From an uncultured Sphingomonas sp. (GTDB taxonomy: Bacteria; Pseudomonadota; Alphaproteobacteria; Sphingomonadales; Sphingomonadaceae), in NCBI RefSeq assembly GCF_937871615.1, contig NZ_CALMPA010000045.1:62001-126000 (forward strand): DNA of 64,000 nucleotides, read 5' to 3'. Of this stretch, positions 12,003 through 29,302 are shown in pieces (the stretch's first letter is position 1; each line of letters opens with the position of its first letter). A program made the position numbers and the translations under genes. Below the pieces are notes generated by a model. It saw nothing but the letters and a program-made list of their open reading frames with translations. It did not search any database and had not been told where the DNA came from.

Positions 12003-12977
12003 CTAGCTTTCGGAACCGCCGCAAAGCACACGCCCGTATGCGGCGATATCCACATTGCCGCCGGACAGGATCACCAGCACGCCGGGTTCCGGCGCGACAC
12101 GCCCCGCCAGCAGCGCCGCCAGCGCCACCGCCCCGCCGGGTTCCACCACGAGTCGCAGGTTTTCCGCGGCCCAGCGCTGCGCGGTCGCAATTTCTTCCTC
12201 GCTTACGGCAACGCCCTTCGCATCGCGGCGCGCCAGCACGTCGAAGGTCAGCGGGGACACCTCCTTCGTCTGAAGCGCGTCGCAGGCCGTGGACGGCGGA
12301 TTCGGGCCGACCGGCTCGATCCAGCTCGCTTCCAGGCTTCGGGTCATGTCGTCCCACCCGGCGGGTTCGACGATGGTGATTCGCGCCTCGGGCAGCGCGA
12401 GCGCAATGCCTGCCGCCAGCCCGCCGCCGCCGCACGGCACGATCGCGTGAGCCGGTGCGCCAAGGCCGGCCTCAACCATCTGTCGCGCCGCCTCGATCGC
12501 GGTGCTTCCCTGCCCTTCGATCACCCACGGATCGTCGAAACTGGGCACCAATGTCGCGTTGCGCGCCGTGGCGAGTTGCCCGGCGATCAGTTCACGACTG
12601 CCGGTCGCCCGGTCGTAAGCCACCACTTCCGCACCCAGCGCGAGCGTCGCCTCCCGCTTCGCGCGCGGCGCGTCGGCAGGCATCACGATCGTCGCCGCGA
12701 TTCCCAGCCGCCGCGCCGCCCAGGCGATTCCCTGCGCGTGATTGCCGGATGAGAAGGCGACAACGCCACGCGCGCGCGCTTCCGCGTCCAAAGCGGTCAG
12801 CCGGTGCCACGCCCCACGGATCTTGAACGCCCCGATCGGCTGCAACGATTCCGCCTTGAAGGCGACATCAATCCCATTGATTTCATGCACGAATAACGGC
12901 GTCGGCGGGAGGATCGCGGCGATCTTCGCCGCTGCGTCGCGCACCCCGGCACGGGTTGGCTGGCGTACAATTGTCAC
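12003..12977 (-). CDS. Threonine/serine dehydratase (PLP-dependent, fold type II)
   Basis: About 324 residues, the length of catabolic-type threonine dehydratase or serine racemase-like enzymes; there is no C-terminal ACT regulatory domain. The PLP lysine is K52 in SLQPIGAFKIRGA, followed by the substrate loop FSSGNHAQG and the phosphate-binding PCGGGGLAAG. These enzymes deaminate L-threonine to 2-oxobutanoate. The frame continues upstream, but I place the start at a GTG (12975-12977) giving MTIVRQPTRAGVRDAAAKI; GCAGG lies a few bases upstream. It diverges from the ornithine decarboxylase across 139 bases that also hold that gene's RNA leader. It might instead be a serine racemase; the sequence alone does not decide. 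Confidence 0.85.
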   Translation of the reverse strand: MTIVRQPTRAGVRDAAAKIAAILPPTPLFVHEINGIDVAFKAESLQPIGAFKIRGAWHRLTALDAEARARGVVAFSSGNHAQGIAWAARRLGIAATIVMPADAPRAKREATLALGAEVVAYDRATGSRELIAGQLATARNATLVPSFDDPWVIEGQGSTAIEAARQMVEAGLGAPAHAIVPCGGGGLAAGIALALPEARITIVEPAGWDDMTRSLEASWIEPVGPNPPSTACDALQTKEVSPLTFDVLARRDAKGVAVSEEEIATAQRWAAENLRLVVEPGGAVALAALLAGRVAPEPGVLVILSGGNVDIAAYGRVLCGGSES

Positions 12978-13049
12978 GGTCGAACCTGCATCATCTGAAT
13001 CCACTTTACATTCAGGGCCAGCGACCCTAACTCGCCCATCCGCTGCCCC

Positions 13050-13115
13050 ATGGGACTTCCAACCGCAAGGCAGCTTTTTTCGCTCGACGCCGCAAGGCAA
13101 TTGGAGGTCCCTTGA
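13050..13115 (+). CDS. Candidate upstream leader peptide of the ornithine decarboxylase gene (21 codons)
   Basis: An ATG-initiated frame starting MGLPTARQL and ending ARQLEVP, with its TGA two bases before the decarboxylase's TTG start. The tetrapeptide ARQL occurs twice because the DNA element CCGCAAGGCA is duplicated. Its codons cover both arms of the helix that hides the downstream ribosome-binding site, so a ribosome translating it would open that helix. No clear ribosome-binding site precedes its ATG, so expression is uncertain. Confidence 0.35.
   Translation: MGLPTARQLFSLDAARQLEVP
13052..13111 (+). promoter_or_regulatory. Leader-RNA helix that sequesters the ornithine decarboxylase ribosome-binding site
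   Basis: GGGACTTCCAA (13052-13062) pairs over all 11 positions, with one U-G wobble, with TTGGAGGTCCC (13101-13111). The 3' arm contains GGAGG (13103-13107), the ribosome-binding site of the decarboxylase. The loop holds two direct copies of CCGCAAGGCA (13063-13072, 13090-13099); the second can fold as GCC-GCAA-GGC with a GNRA tetraloop. A conserved 'speF leader' RNA has been described upstream of ornithine decarboxylase genes in alphaproteobacteria; this is the equivalent position, but I cannot confirm membership by consensus match. Confidence 0.65.
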
Positions 13116-13116
13116 G

Positions 13117-14349
13117 TTGCACCAGCATCATAGCGCGCTGGGGCTAGCCGCCCCCTCGATAGTTTCCGCCACCAATGCCGGCGGAGCCATTGACATTGCG
13201 AAGCGGGCGCCGGTTCAGCCGGTGACGCTGATCCGTCCGCACGCCGCCGCGCGGGCCGCCCGCTTCTTTTCGGAGAAGTTTCCGGGCCGCTCGATGTATG
13301 CGGTGAAGGCGAATCCCAGCCCCGAGCTGATCGCCACGCTGTTCGAAAACGGCATCACGCATTTCGATGTCGCCTCGATCGCGGAGGTGCGGCTCGTCGC
13401 GCGCGCCGCGCCCGGCGCCACGCTTTGCTTCATGCACCCGGTGAAGGCCGAGGAAGCGATCGCGGAGGCATATTTCACGCATGGCGTGCGCGTGTTCAGC
13501 CTCGACAGCCTTGAGGAACTGGACAAGATCGTCCGCGCCACCCGCAACGCCAGCGATCTTACGCTGTGCGTCCGTCTGCGCGTGTCGTCGGAGCATTCCA
13601 AGCTCAGCCTCGCGTCGAAGTTCGGCGTTCCGGCACATGAGGCAAAGCCGCTGCTGATGGCGGCGCGGCAGGCGGCGGATGCGCTTGGCATCTGCTTCCA
13701 TGTCGGCAGCCAGGCGATGACGCCGGACGCCTATGCTGAGGCGATGGAGCGCGTGCGCCACGCGATCGTCGATGCGGCGGTGACGGTGGACGTGATTGAT
13801 GTCGGCGGGGGTTTCCCCTCCTCCTATCCGGGGATGGAACCGCCCCCGCTGGAGCGTTATTTCGAGACGATCCACCGCGCGTTCGAAAGCCTGCCGGTCA
13901 GCTATTCGGCCGAACTGTGGGCGGAGCCGGGCCGCGCGCTCTGCGCCGAATATAGTTCGGTGGTGGTGCGCGTCGAAAAGCGTCGCGGCAACGAGCTTTA
14001 CATCAACGACGGCGCTTATGGCGCGTTGTTCGATGCGGCGCATATCGGCTGGCGTTTCCCGGTCGCGCTGTTGCGCGAACCGGAATCGACCGTGCGCGAT
14101 CACCCCTTCTCGTTCTACGGCCCGACCTGCGACGATCTCGATCATATGGCAGGCCCGTTCCTGCTCCCGGCGGACGTGCAGGCCGGCGATTATATCGAGA
14201 TCGGGATGCTCGGCGCCTATGGCGCGGCGATGCGCACCGCGTTCAACGGCTTCGGATCGGACGAGACGATCATCGTCACCGACGAGCCGATGGTCTCGCT
14301 CTACATGGATGGCGTGCGCGAGGTCGCGAACAACGTCGTAACATTGTAA
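13117..14349 (+). CDS. Ornithine (lysine/ornithine-type) decarboxylase, fold type III
   Basis: About 410 residues, an alanine-racemase-fold decarboxylase like eukaryotic ODC. The PLP lysine is K64 in MYAVKANP. HVGSQ, the glycine loop DVGGGFPSSYPG and EPGRAL bind PLP phosphate, and C338 in YGPTCDDLD is the catalytic Cys contributed across the dimer, with the Asp that favours ornithine. It makes putrescine from ornithine. No ATG occurs before the PLP lysine region, so I choose a TTG (13117) with GGAGG nine bases upstream; the first residues become MHQHHSALGL. The leader RNA appears built to hide that site. It is followed by a deoxyhypusine-synthase-like gene, forming a polyamine unit. Confidence 0.92.
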   Translation: MHQHHSALGLAAPSIVSATNAGGAIDIAKRAPVQPVTLIRPHAAARAARFFSEKFPGRSMYAVKANPSPELIATLFENGITHFDVASIAEVRLVARAAPGATLCFMHPVKAEEAIAEAYFTHGVRVFSLDSLEELDKIVRATRNASDLTLCVRLRVSSEHSKLSLASKFGVPAHEAKPLLMAARQAADALGICFHVGSQAMTPDAYAEAMERVRHAIVDAAVTVDVIDVGGGFPSSYPGMEPPPLERYFETIHRAFESLPVSYSAELWAEPGRALCAEYSSVVVRVEKRRGNELYINDGAYGALFDAAHIGWRFPVALLREPESTVRDHPFSFYGPTCDDLDHMAGPFLLPADVQAGDYIEIGMLGAYGAAMRTAFNGFGSDETIIVTDEPMVSLYMDGVREVANNVVTL

Positions 14350-14369
14350 TAGCCGCAAGGCAGGCTTTC

Positions 14370-14402
14370 GGGCGACGATGCGTTCCGCGCGCATCGTCGC
14401 CC
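14370..14402 (+). other. Perfect 13-bp stem-loop between the two polyamine genes
   Basis: GGGCGACGATGCG (14370-14382) is repeated exactly in inverted form at 14390-14402 around a seven-base loop. No T-run follows, so it is not a standard terminator. A third copy of CCGCAAGGCA (14353-14362) lies just before it, the same element found twice in the decarboxylase leader. It may be an RNA stability or attenuation element that sets the ratio of the two gene products. Confidence 0.6.
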
Positions 14403-14456
14403 CTGGGGTTTCCGCGTCCCCTTGAATGACGACGGCATCGTATGCGGGAGTTTCCC

Positions 14457-15536
14457 ATGACCGACACCTTGACCAAGACCGCCGCGGCCAACGCGCCGAT
14501 CAATGACAATCGCAAGGCCGAACTGCTGTCGAAGCAGGTCAAGCACATCGACATCAAGAGCTTTGACGCGCGCCCGATCGTCGATGCGATGGCCGACATG
14601 AGCTTCACCAGCCGCGATCTCGGCCGCGCCACCAGCATCTACAACCAGATGCTTGGCGACAAGGATTGCACCGTGGTGCTGGTAATCGCCGGCTCCACCT
14701 CGGCTGGCGGCTGCATGGATCTCTATGCCGAACTGGTGCGCAACAAGATGGTCGACGTGGTGGTCGCCACCGGCGCGACGATCGTTGACATGGATTTCTT
14801 CGAGGGCCTCGGCCACAAGCATTATCAGGCGCTTGAGGTGCCGGACGATGACACGCTGCGCTCGCTCTACATTGATCGCATCTACGATACCTATATCGAC
14901 GAGGAACAGCTTCAGGATTGCGATTTCACGATCAACAAGATCGCGAACGAACTGGAGCCCAAGGCATATTCCTCGCGCGCGTTCATCCGCGAAATGGGCC
15001 GCTATCTCGCCGAGCATGGCAAGAAGGAGAACAGCCTCGTCAAGCTCGCTTATGAGCATGACGTGCCGATCTTCTGCCCGGCGTTCGTGGACAGCTCGGC
15101 GGGCTTCGGCCTCGTCAAGCATCAGGTGGACAATGCCAAGGCGGGCAAGCCCTATCTGATGATCGACGCGGTGGCCGATTTCCGCGAACTGACCGATATC
15201 AAGATCGCGGCGGGCACCACCGGCCTGCTGATGATCGGCGGCGGCGTGCCGAAGAACTTCATCCAGGACACCGTCGTCTGCGCGGAGATCCTCGGCCACG
15301 AGGATGTCGAGGTGCATAAATATGCGGTGCAGATCACCGTCGCCGATGTGCGTGACGGCGCCTGCTCCTCCTCCACGCTGCAAGAGGCGGCAAGCTGGGG
15401 CAAGGTGAACACCGGCATCGAACAGATGGTGTTCGCCGAGGCCGGCTCGGTCATGCCGCTGCTGGCGTCGGACGCCTATCATCGCGGCCTGTGGAAGGAT
15501 CGCCCGGAACGTCGCTGGGCAAAGCTGTTCGCCTGA
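14457..15536 (+). CDS. Deoxyhypusine-synthase-like protein, probably a homospermidine-type polyamine synthase
   Basis: A 359-residue member of the deoxyhypusine synthase family. It has the NAD-binding Rossmann features (VIAGSTSAGG near residue 80; LLMIGGGVPKNF near 255) and the catalytic-lysine motif EAASWGK, giving K316, matching the enzyme-imine lysine of deoxyhypusine synthase. Bacteria have no eIF5A to modify, so a hypusine role is excluded by biology; bacterial members are thought to transfer an aminobutyl (or guanidinobutyl) group between small polyamines, giving homospermidine or a guanidino analogue. The neighbouring ornithine decarboxylase supplies putrescine, which supports that role. 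The ATG at 14457 has GGGAG six bases upstream, better than an in-frame ATG at 14442. A T-run terminator follows about 110 bases downstream. Confidence 0.85.
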   Translation: MTDTLTKTAAANAPINDNRKAELLSKQVKHIDIKSFDARPIVDAMADMSFTSRDLGRATSIYNQMLGDKDCTVVLVIAGSTSAGGCMDLYAELVRNKMVDVVVATGATIVDMDFFEGLGHKHYQALEVPDDDTLRSLYIDRIYDTYIDEEQLQDCDFTINKIANELEPKAYSSRAFIREMGRYLAEHGKKENSLVKLAYEHDVPIFCPAFVDSSAGFGLVKHQVDNAKAGKPYLMIDAVADFRELTDIKIAAGTTGLLMIGGGVPKNFIQDTVVCAEILGHEDVEVHKYAVQITVADVRDGACSSSTLQEAASWGKVNTGIEQMVFAEAGSVMPLLASDAYHRGLWKDRPERRWAKLFA

Positions 15537-28075: not shown

Positions 28076-29302
28076 TTAGGAACGACTGACTATGCGCTCC
28101 GCCGGCGCCGGATGGCCGAGAAACGCCGTCGGGCTGGCGGTGACGCCATAAGCGCCGGCGAGGAAGATCGCGATGATATCGCCCGGCGCCGCATGGGGCA
28201 GCGCCACGCGATCGCCCAGCCGGTCGAGCGGTGTGCACAGGCACCCCACTACGGACACCTCACCGTATGCCGCCTCCCCCATGCGATGCGCCACCGCGAT
28301 CGGATAGTTGCGCCGCACCACGGTGCCGAAATTGCCGCTGGCGGCGAGCTGGTGGTGAAGCCCGCCATCGACGACGAGGAAGGTCTCGCCCCGGCTCTCC
28401 TTCCGATCGACCACGCTGGTGAGATAGACCCCGGCCTCCGCCACCAGCCAGCGCCCCAGTTCGATCGCGAAACGCGCGTCGCCAAGGATCGGCGCGCGCG
28501 CTTCAAGCGTCGCCGCCAGCGCGTCGCCGATCCGATTGATATCGAGCGGGATGTCGCCCGGAAAATAGGGAATGCCGAATCCCCCGCCGAGATTGACCAG
28601 CGGCGGGGCCGCCCCCGCTTCGTCCGCCAGCCGCGCGGCGAGCGCGACCGTCGCCGCCTGCGTGTCGATGATCGCCGCCGCGTCGAGCGCCTGCGAGCCC
28701 GCGAAGATATGGAAGCCGCGCCAGTCCGCCCCGCCGTCACGGATCAGGCGCACCACGTCCGCCGCCATTTCCGCATCCACGCCGAAGGGCGATGGGCGAC
28801 CGCCCATCTTCATCCCCGATCCCTTCAGCTCCATATCCGGATTGACCCTGACGGCGAGGCGCGGGCGGGCGCCCAGCCGATCGCCGATCGCCAGTGCGCG
28901 CCGGGCCTCGCCTATGGATTCGACGTTCAGCGTGGCGCCGCAGATGATCGCCGCCTCCAGTTCCGCGTCGCGCTTGCCCGGCCCGGCGAAGCTGATGTGC
29001 CTGGCCGGCATCTCCTTCAGCGCGACGGATAATTCGCCGGCGGAGGCCACGTCGATCCCGTCGACCAGCGGCGCGATCGCAGCGAGCAATATCGGGTTCG
29101 GGTTCGCCTTCATCGCATAATGCAGGTCAATCGCGGGCATCGCCGCGCGGAACCGCGCAACCCGCGCCGCGACGATCGCGGGATCATAGACGAAACACGG
29201 CGATCCGGCCTCGGCGATCCAATCGGTCGCACGCCGCCCGCCGATCGTCAATTCACCCCGCTGCCCGGCAAATTCGGGCGGGATCGGCCCCATCGGCTTC
29301 AT
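28076..29302 (-). CDS. XrtA-associated PLP-dependent decarboxylase (fold type III)
   Basis: A 408-residue enzyme of the diaminopimelate/ornithine decarboxylase fold. K65 in HYAMKANPNP is the PLP lysine. NLGGGFGIPYFPGD and ELGRWLVAEAG bind PLP phosphate, and VVGCLCTPLDRLG carries the catalytic Cys region. Its family is named for co-occurrence with exosortase A; the substrate is not known. The ATG overlaps the acyl-CoA ligase stop by four bases (ATGA), so the two are co-translated. It is clearly distinct from the ornithine decarboxylase at 13117, having a different Cys motif and an N-terminal extension. One guess is that it decarboxylates an amino acid or acyl intermediate made by the ligase/ACP pair. 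Confidence 0.9.
   Translation of the reverse strand: MKPMGPIPPEFAGQRGELTIGGRRATDWIAEAGSPCFVYDPAIVAARVARFRAAMPAIDLHYAMKANPNPILLAAIAPLVDGIDVASAGELSVALKEMPARHISFAGPGKRDAELEAAIICGATLNVESIGEARRALAIGDRLGARPRLAVRVNPDMELKGSGMKMGGRPSPFGVDAEMAADVVRLIRDGGADWRGFHIFAGSQALDAAAIIDTQAATVALAARLADEAGAAPPLVNLGGGFGIPYFPGDIPLDINRIGDALAATLEARAPILGDARFAIELGRWLVAEAGVYLTSVVDRKESRGETFLVVDGGLHHQLAASGNFGTVVRRNYPIAVAHRMGEAAYGEVSVVGCLCTPLDRLGDRVALPHAAPGDIIAIFLAGAYGVTASPTAFLGHPAPAERIVSRS

Follow-up and report, generated by a model that had tools for sequence, protein, structure and literature searches.

The leader of a putative ornithine decarboxylase gene in the window (the whole stretch of 64,000 nucleotides from an uncultured Sphingomonas sp. 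that was analyzed) is, by its described features, the odc1 motif, which Brewer et al. had already described in 2021 (PMC8632094); the comparison made here is with the text of that description. The element is real and well conserved, and we consider it probable (roughly 0.7) that the leader, positions 13040–13116, acts as an odc1-class cis-regulatory RNA that would set decarboxylase output via access to the ribosome-binding site and via start choice. A preliminary description of this DNA had recognized one of the two pseudoknot helices and had picked the wrong small frame; helix A and the second UUG, at 13112, were absent from it. As a regulator of ornithine decarboxylase, odc1 is an orphan, with no ligand found in print and no match in Rfam 15, and the wider alignment reported below adds covariation support for its pseudoknot. 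The features discussed are collected in Table 1.

Table 1. Features of the decarboxylase leader and the adjacent genes, in window coordinates
Feature	Position	Strand	Basis or remark
-35 element TTTACA	13005-13010	+	sequence and spacing in relatives
-10 element TAACTC	13028-13033	+	relatives have TATGTG, TATTTC, TATATC and similar
Helix A, 5′ arm GCTGCC	13042-13047	+	98.6% of cells paired; 4/6 pairs with both-side changes
21-codon ATG frame	13050-13115	+	present in the window, not conserved
Helix B, 5′ arm GGGACTTCCAA	13052-13062	+	left shoulder of Brewer's P1, as read here
Helix A, 3′ arm GGCAGC, within the helix B loop	13069-13074	+	covariation
Small hairpin within the variable stretch, GCC-GCAA-GGC	13089-13098	+	different sequence in relatives, paired or unpaired
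Helix B, 3′ arm TTGGAGGTCCC, containing the Shine-Dalgarno site	13101-13111	+	sequence and covariation
Shine-Dalgarno site GGAGG	13103-13107	+	sequence; 4 nt to UUG 13112, 9 nt to UUG 13117
Overlapping uORF, UUG start, MSCTSIIARWG, UAG stop 13145-13147	13112-13147	+	11 codons in 176/180 loci
Ornithine/diaminopimelate-family PLP-dependent decarboxylase, UUG start	13117-14349	+	Orn_Arg_deC domains
Deoxyhypusine-synthase family gene, next downstream	14442-15536	+	NF002699, 561.5 bits, cutoff 500

Comparison with the odc1 motif and other leader RNAs

As far as its text describes it, the odc1 motif (uORF-25-1; 272 alphaproteobacterial examples) has its ribosome-binding site in the right shoulder of a stem with a large loop, a pseudoknot between the 5′ end and that loop, a UUG main start that another UUG precedes by two nucleotides, and a small frame that begins after the helix and encodes an 11-residue peptide (PMC8632094). 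All of this was found in the window: helix B gives the extended stem with a large loop, its right shoulder containing the ribosome-binding site, helix A gives the pseudoknot between 5′ end and loop, TTG 13117 is preceded two nucleotides upstream by TTG 13112, and the uORF encodes exactly 11 amino acids. The leader is, moreover, alphaproteobacterial, with Sphingomonas as the nearest named relatives, and lies upstream of a decarboxylase as judged by its domains. The published starts, nucleotides 75–77 and 80–82, coincide with those of the window if 13038 is counted as nucleotide 1, an agreement that proves nothing. We found nothing that separates the window from the motif as described in the text of that paper. 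A search for the motif's name led to no other paper, and among the texts consulted no other describes the element; it is absent from the passages of PMC3766115 examined and, by term search, from PMC11109978.

In the reporter experiments reported with the motif, made in E. coli with lacZ fusions of an example from Sphingomonas echinoides, the two UUGs were both functional, the uORF start being about 3-fold better, and both frames were expressed more in minimal than in rich medium (PMC8632094). Three mutations of conserved nucleotides, M4–M6, led to loss of main-frame expression, two of them with little effect on expression of the uORF (PMC8632094).

The preliminary description had raised membership in the speF leader, which likewise precedes ornithine decarboxylase in alphaproteobacteria (PMC1273637). 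The speF model RF00518 did not match this leader: it gave no gathering match in the window or in 20 related loci (seven of the window's family), and none at E ≤ 10 within 12700–14700. The speF leader, as far as Corbino et al. 2005 describe it, appears to be longer, having been probed from −400, and contains a large insertion as well as a stem-loop that is long and bulged (PMC1273637). Rfam 15 as a whole gave no gathering match in the window and none on the plus strand of the leader at E ≤ 10. Six matches to other families at E ≤ 10 within 12700–14700 were all far below gathering; the three on the plus strand (13605–13750, 13969–14135 and 14276–14419) do not cover the leader, and the three on the minus strand include ncRv12659 opposite 13063–13143 (E 0.032, 22.4 bits versus the 209 needed).

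By its described architecture, SAM-II (RF00521, PMC1273637), like other compact pseudoknot riboswitches, works in a similar way, with a single stem and a pseudoknot in fewer than 80 nt of an alphaproteobacterial 5′ leader, but these RNAs serve other genes and the present leader is without an Rfam match. RNA sensing of a polyamine exists in the spermidine riboswitch class, described as a variant of the SAM aptamer (PMC10853860), with which the leader was compared by Rfam scan only.

Covariation of the two helices

The preliminary description had placed GGAGG in the 3′ arm of an 11-bp helix. This was borne out, with exact coordinates, one of the 11 pairs being G-U. Taken alone, this helix is weak evidence, as 61 of 2000 dinucleotide-shuffled versions of the 82-nt leader also contained one of at least 11 pairs, and the nested fold of 13037–13160 had a z of −1.27, with 23 of 200 shuffles equally good. 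Relatives were collected by protein search (the best 80 of at least 594, with titles mostly of Sphingomonas and close genera), and a shared core was present upstream of the decarboxylase in all 84 leaders compared, comprising the 80 relatives, three further leaders and that of the window. Apart from small departures, it reads CCGCTGCCCCAT-GGGACTTCCAACCGCAAGGCAG, 16–42 variable nucleotides and then TTGGAGGTCCC-TTGA-N-TTG; the variable length between A3 and B3 follows no three-nucleotide step. Helix A was recognized from this core. Its arms alternate with those of helix B in the order A5-B5-A3-B3, which implies an H-type pseudoknot whose B3 arm contains the Shine-Dalgarno site.

For a first alignment 51 of the 84 leaders were used, leaving out 22 with an identical core, eight near copies, and L044, L051 and L055, in which MAFFT had misplaced an extra G. 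In these 51 distinct close leaders, 99.8% of cells were paired over both helices, with double changes in two pairs. Among the 84 leaders, helix A changes from CTGCC/GGCAG to CAGCC/GGCTG in L067 and L075. A covariance model built from the 51, R1, was run against 296 genomes of the order; 210 of them had a match at E ≤ 0.1, and each had just one. In its own genome the window's element was the one strong match, accompanied by a weak one (E 0.42) on the opposite strand at the same place. In a kinship-ordered table, at least three genomes of the window's family had no R1 match, ahead of the misses in other families. Two loci of that family, L232 and L233 (genomes G498 and G673), carry paired UUG starts before the decarboxylase, with uORFs of 22 and 11 codons, and went unmatched by R1 even at E ≤ 5, which points to a strongly changed or lost leader in both.

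A divergent set of 97 loci was drawn from 119 (L112–L141 and L143–L231) by dropping 22 that were judged close to the Sphingomonas set already collected. R1 matched all 97, and the decarboxylase lay immediately downstream in each of the 96 typed matches (L215, a copy of L129, was left out). Eighty-seven of these loci together with eight others made up a set of 95 leaders; the ten left out were partial (L160, L168, L172), carried an inserted hairpin (L163, L165, L170, L171) or were near copies (L161, L207, L215). Over the 95 leaders, 98.5% of cells were paired, compared with 38–59% when partners were slid. An alignment for compensatory stem changes, as the preliminary description had proposed, indeed yielded changes on both sides in nine of 16 pairs (25 cells), a level reached in 0 of 500 shuffles. 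This alignment (designated A3, like the helix arm) was fitted to helix B and thus favors B, not A. Helix A plays no role in the R1 structure and has both-side changes in four of its six pairs, as in the variants GCCGCC/GGCGGC (L148), GTTGCC/GGCGAC (L155) and GCAGCC/GGCTGC (L144). The nucleotides between the helix arms were nearly invariant. As both helices covary in the 95 leaders, we regard the helix as certain: on this comparative evidence, the leader helix is real and is half of an H-type pseudoknot.

Some loci depart from the common layout. L161, L196 and L197 have an enlarged variable stretch, with elements of 135–137 nt and a sequence common to all three. In L163, L165, L170 and L171 the extra hairpin is small and, by eye, apparently lies between A5 and B5, with helix A seemingly still able to pair.

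Paired UUG starts and the overlapping uORF

UUG 13112 stands two nucleotides before UUG 13117, the two starts beginning 5 nt apart, and the uORF overlaps the decarboxylase start and has a stop that begins 28 nt inside the decarboxylase gene. The four of 180 loci (157 distinct leaders) that deviate from 11 codons have early stops (L186, L202), a deletion (L146) or a lost stop (L169). The stop requires that decarboxylase codon 10 end in T and A (TG for UGA), and in 155 of 161 distinct sequences this codon is CTA (66), GTA (65) or TTA (24), the remainder being CTG (4), GAC (1) and GTG (1). Over approximately codons 31–380 of the genes of the 80 relatives, CTA and TTA together account for 27 of 2324 leucine codons and GTA for 73 of 2143 valine codons; most cases of GTA at codon 10 are in other genera. 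Codon 10 is thus held by codons that are otherwise rare in these genes, which argues that the uORF stop is very probably under selection.

The peptide was assessed by codon-position entropy in two classes, after four of the 161 distinct stretches without canonical starts or stop had been set aside; "Sphingomonas-type" denotes a peptide with RW at positions 9–10, a sequence class and not a tree. In the 93 distinct Sphingomonas-type sequences, mean site entropies at the three uORF codon positions were 0.35, 0.34 and 0.66, the third varying most (permutation p 0.045 for the third-position excess, relatedness not corrected). From the second base after the uORF stop, entropy climbs to about 1.5 bits and shows no periodicity in step with the decarboxylase codons. 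The 64 distinct sequences of other types gave 0.90, 1.22 and 0.82, a pattern that follows the codon positions of the decarboxylase (p 0.066). Codons off the uORF consensus were synonymous in 106 and non-synonymous in 140 cases in the Sphingomonas-type set, and in 58 and 261 cases, respectively, in the other types. These data weakly suggest that the uORF peptide is selected in the Sphingomonas-type set only. The odc1 report, in its description of the motif, presents most peptide positions as highly conserved and mentions no length variation (PMC8632094), whereas in our wider set constraint on the peptide was confined to the Sphingomonas type and the length deviated in the four loci named above.

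The same data bear on a nascent-peptide sensor, in which ornithine or a polyamine would cause the 11-residue peptide to stall its ribosome close to the UAG, so that the decarboxylase start would be covered and expression turned off. The E. coli SpeFL peptide and the mammalian AMD1 uORF are parallels for such stalling, and the steady length of the uORF, the variation at third uORF positions in the Sphingomonas-type set and the rise of entropy just past its stop would all fit. We nevertheless consider this explanation unlikely, given that the entropy pattern is reversed in the other 64 sequences, where the peptide frame is not constrained, that off-consensus uORF codons are mostly non-synonymous in both sets, and that M4–M6, as described, act in RNA upstream of the peptide (PMC8632094). 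With a stop that is very probably selected and a peptide weakly constrained in one clade, it is start choice, not the peptide, that presents itself as the experimental target.

The 21-codon ATG frame and the transcript start

The preliminary description had proposed a translational attenuator, in which translation of a 21-codon frame from ATG 13050 would open the helix. The frame exists: it encodes 21 amino acids, runs through both arms and ends one nucleotide (13116) before TTG 13117. However, the conservation check envisaged for it went against the proposal, as the ATG at that place is missing in 54 of 180 leaders; among the 126 that have it, the frame ends at the window's stop in 43, runs past the decarboxylase start in 51, stops earlier in 19 and shows no stop in view in 13 (for the 157 distinct leaders: 53 without ATG, 36 with the window's stop, 37 past the start, 19 earlier and 12 without a stop).

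The promoter elements proposed earlier, TTTACA and TAACTC, are present and 17 nt apart, and TTTACA keeps a steady distance, beginning 36–40 nt upstream of helix A in 79 of the 84 leaders; it was not found in the other five. The transcript is expected to start near 13040, as compared with the coding start at 13117. ATG 13050 would then follow an expected leader of only about 10 nt, with no Shine-Dalgarno site and, given the start near 13040, no room for one. An unconserved frame behind so short a leader, lacking a Shine-Dalgarno site, argues that translation of the arms is not the mechanism, and the 21-codon frame is best explained as a by-product of RNA conservation. The attenuator thus has in its favor the presence of the frame in the window and an identical frame end in 43 of 180 leaders, but with neither ATG nor frame end kept and with a loop length that varies freely, we regard it as having next to no chance of being correct. 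What stands of the earlier leader logic is a cis-acting element with a covarying stem that hides the ribosome-binding site of the decarboxylase; the 21-codon frame as its gate does not.

Proposed mechanism

We suggest that helix A closes a loop and that helix B pairs that loop with the Shine-Dalgarno stretch. With both helices formed, neither start would have access to the Shine-Dalgarno site; opening of helix B would free this single site for use by both UUG codons. Initiation at 13112 would yield the 11-residue peptide and no enzyme, making the uORF a decoy, and initiation at 13117 would yield the enzyme. The decarboxylase level would be set by the RNA, as it would control both access to the site and start choice. 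The comparisons made here demonstrate three things: the pseudoknot, the pairing of the starts and the constancy of the uORF stop. The loss of main-frame expression in M4–M6 speaks against a plain off-switch by site occlusion (PMC8632094), and the published mutants, as described, suggest that the conserved RNA nucleotides favor the main start (PMC8632094).

A signal would presumably shift the balance between the starts. Ornithine decarboxylase commits the pathway to polyamines (PMC8632094). The most plausible signal would be a polyamine or some other metabolite of the pathway, which is a guess. Corbino et al. report no binding of ornithine, putrescine or spermidine to the speF leader (PMC1273637), and a polyamine ligand at a decarboxylase leader is hence not a given. 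The pseudoknot might also be no small-molecule switch at all, serving to fix translation at a low level or responding to temperature, magnesium or an RNA-binding protein. In line with this, a single gene was found with the element, searches of the literature returned no ligand and no follow-up for odc1, and the higher expression in minimal than in rich medium names no signal (PMC8632094). Near-invariant loop nucleotides across many genera exceed what a passive stem needs, however, and we rate this explanation as quite unlikely. A search of the window's own genome with R1 and a class-wide search found no regulon beyond the one gene; the class-wide search gave four matches outside the family (E 0.001–0.07), and no decarboxylase was found in their loci.

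Paired starts and a second leader in other families

Decarboxylase genes across the class and the order were inspected by eye, in 77 loci, for a start 5 nt upstream. In most of the distant families no tandem start was seen at the likely start of these genes. Tandem starts with other uORF lengths occurred in family f102 (L093), in part of f98 (L101, L103) and in a few others. In f116, in which two of four genomes have the gene (L087, L088), paired starts ATGAGGTG stand behind GGAGGTCCC and open an 11-residue uORF (MRCQITIAPMN or MRCQITIAPMT); no odc1-like leader was recognized there by eye.

In family f63 the gene is present in 55 of 60 genomes, and the start pair lay at −5 in 27 of 30 loci and, as GTGGGTG, at −4 in three. 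These 30 loci share a second leader, with departures in L296, that reads TCCGGCGGACCC...GCTGCTAACGCCGG.TGGGTT.AAC...GGGGG...GTGAATTG, its 3′ part also being given as GGGGGTTACGTGAATTG. The second leader was located in L089–L091 and L283–L309 (f63), in a shorter form in L332–L344, L346 and L347 (f182), and partially, without its 5′ part, in L345 (f146). Rfam gave no match in L089 and L090 (gathering) or in L091; one chance match (E 3.6) was seen in L298. Alignment A4 comprises 28 of the 30 f63 leaders, the near copies L292 and L309 being left out. R2, a model of the second leader, matched at E ≤ 0.1 in 65 of 150 genomes of the order of f63, and the fifty matches with E < 1e-6 comprised 31 in f63, 18 in f182 and one in f146. 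A decarboxylase followed in all 20 R2 loci fetched (16 from f182 and f146, four weak ones from f181).

All but one of the 28 aligned second leaders have an identical helix A (L296 deviates), and covariation is uninformative as a consequence; the guessed helix B is impossible in f182. A pseudoknot in the second leader is therefore only suggested. Of 46 loci from f63, f182 and f146, 43 have paired starts with the 5-nt offset; in these families the uORF has 31, 29 or 17 codons (30, 6 and 7 loci) and it is the decarboxylase frame that is constrained. The paired starts of these families, together with this constraint, indicate that paired starts are more widespread than odc1 and that a conserved peptide is not. 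It is possible, and we propose it only tentatively, that several alphaproteobacterial families control the decarboxylase through a common core of paired starts and an overlapping decoy uORF, with different structured leaders fitted in front: the odc1 pseudoknot in the window's family and the second leader in f63 and f182. The second leader is a further candidate for the same signal. Should the two leaders respond to one and the same metabolite of the pathway, a single start-choice device would be driven by RNA sensors that are unrelated to each other.

Decarboxylase and neighboring genes

The product of the gene behind the leader is taken as ornithine decarboxylase by its domain content, and the deoxyhypusine-synthase-family neighbor appears to fit polyamine synthesis. 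A second PLP-dependent decarboxylase homologue, 31% identical to the first, lies at 28100–29173 on the minus strand; R1 gave no match there. After the stop of the first decarboxylase, GCCGCAAGGC recurs at 14352–14361, and a very stable hairpin follows at 14370–14402 (z −3.70 for 14347–14410), which is perhaps a terminator or a processing site before the next gene.
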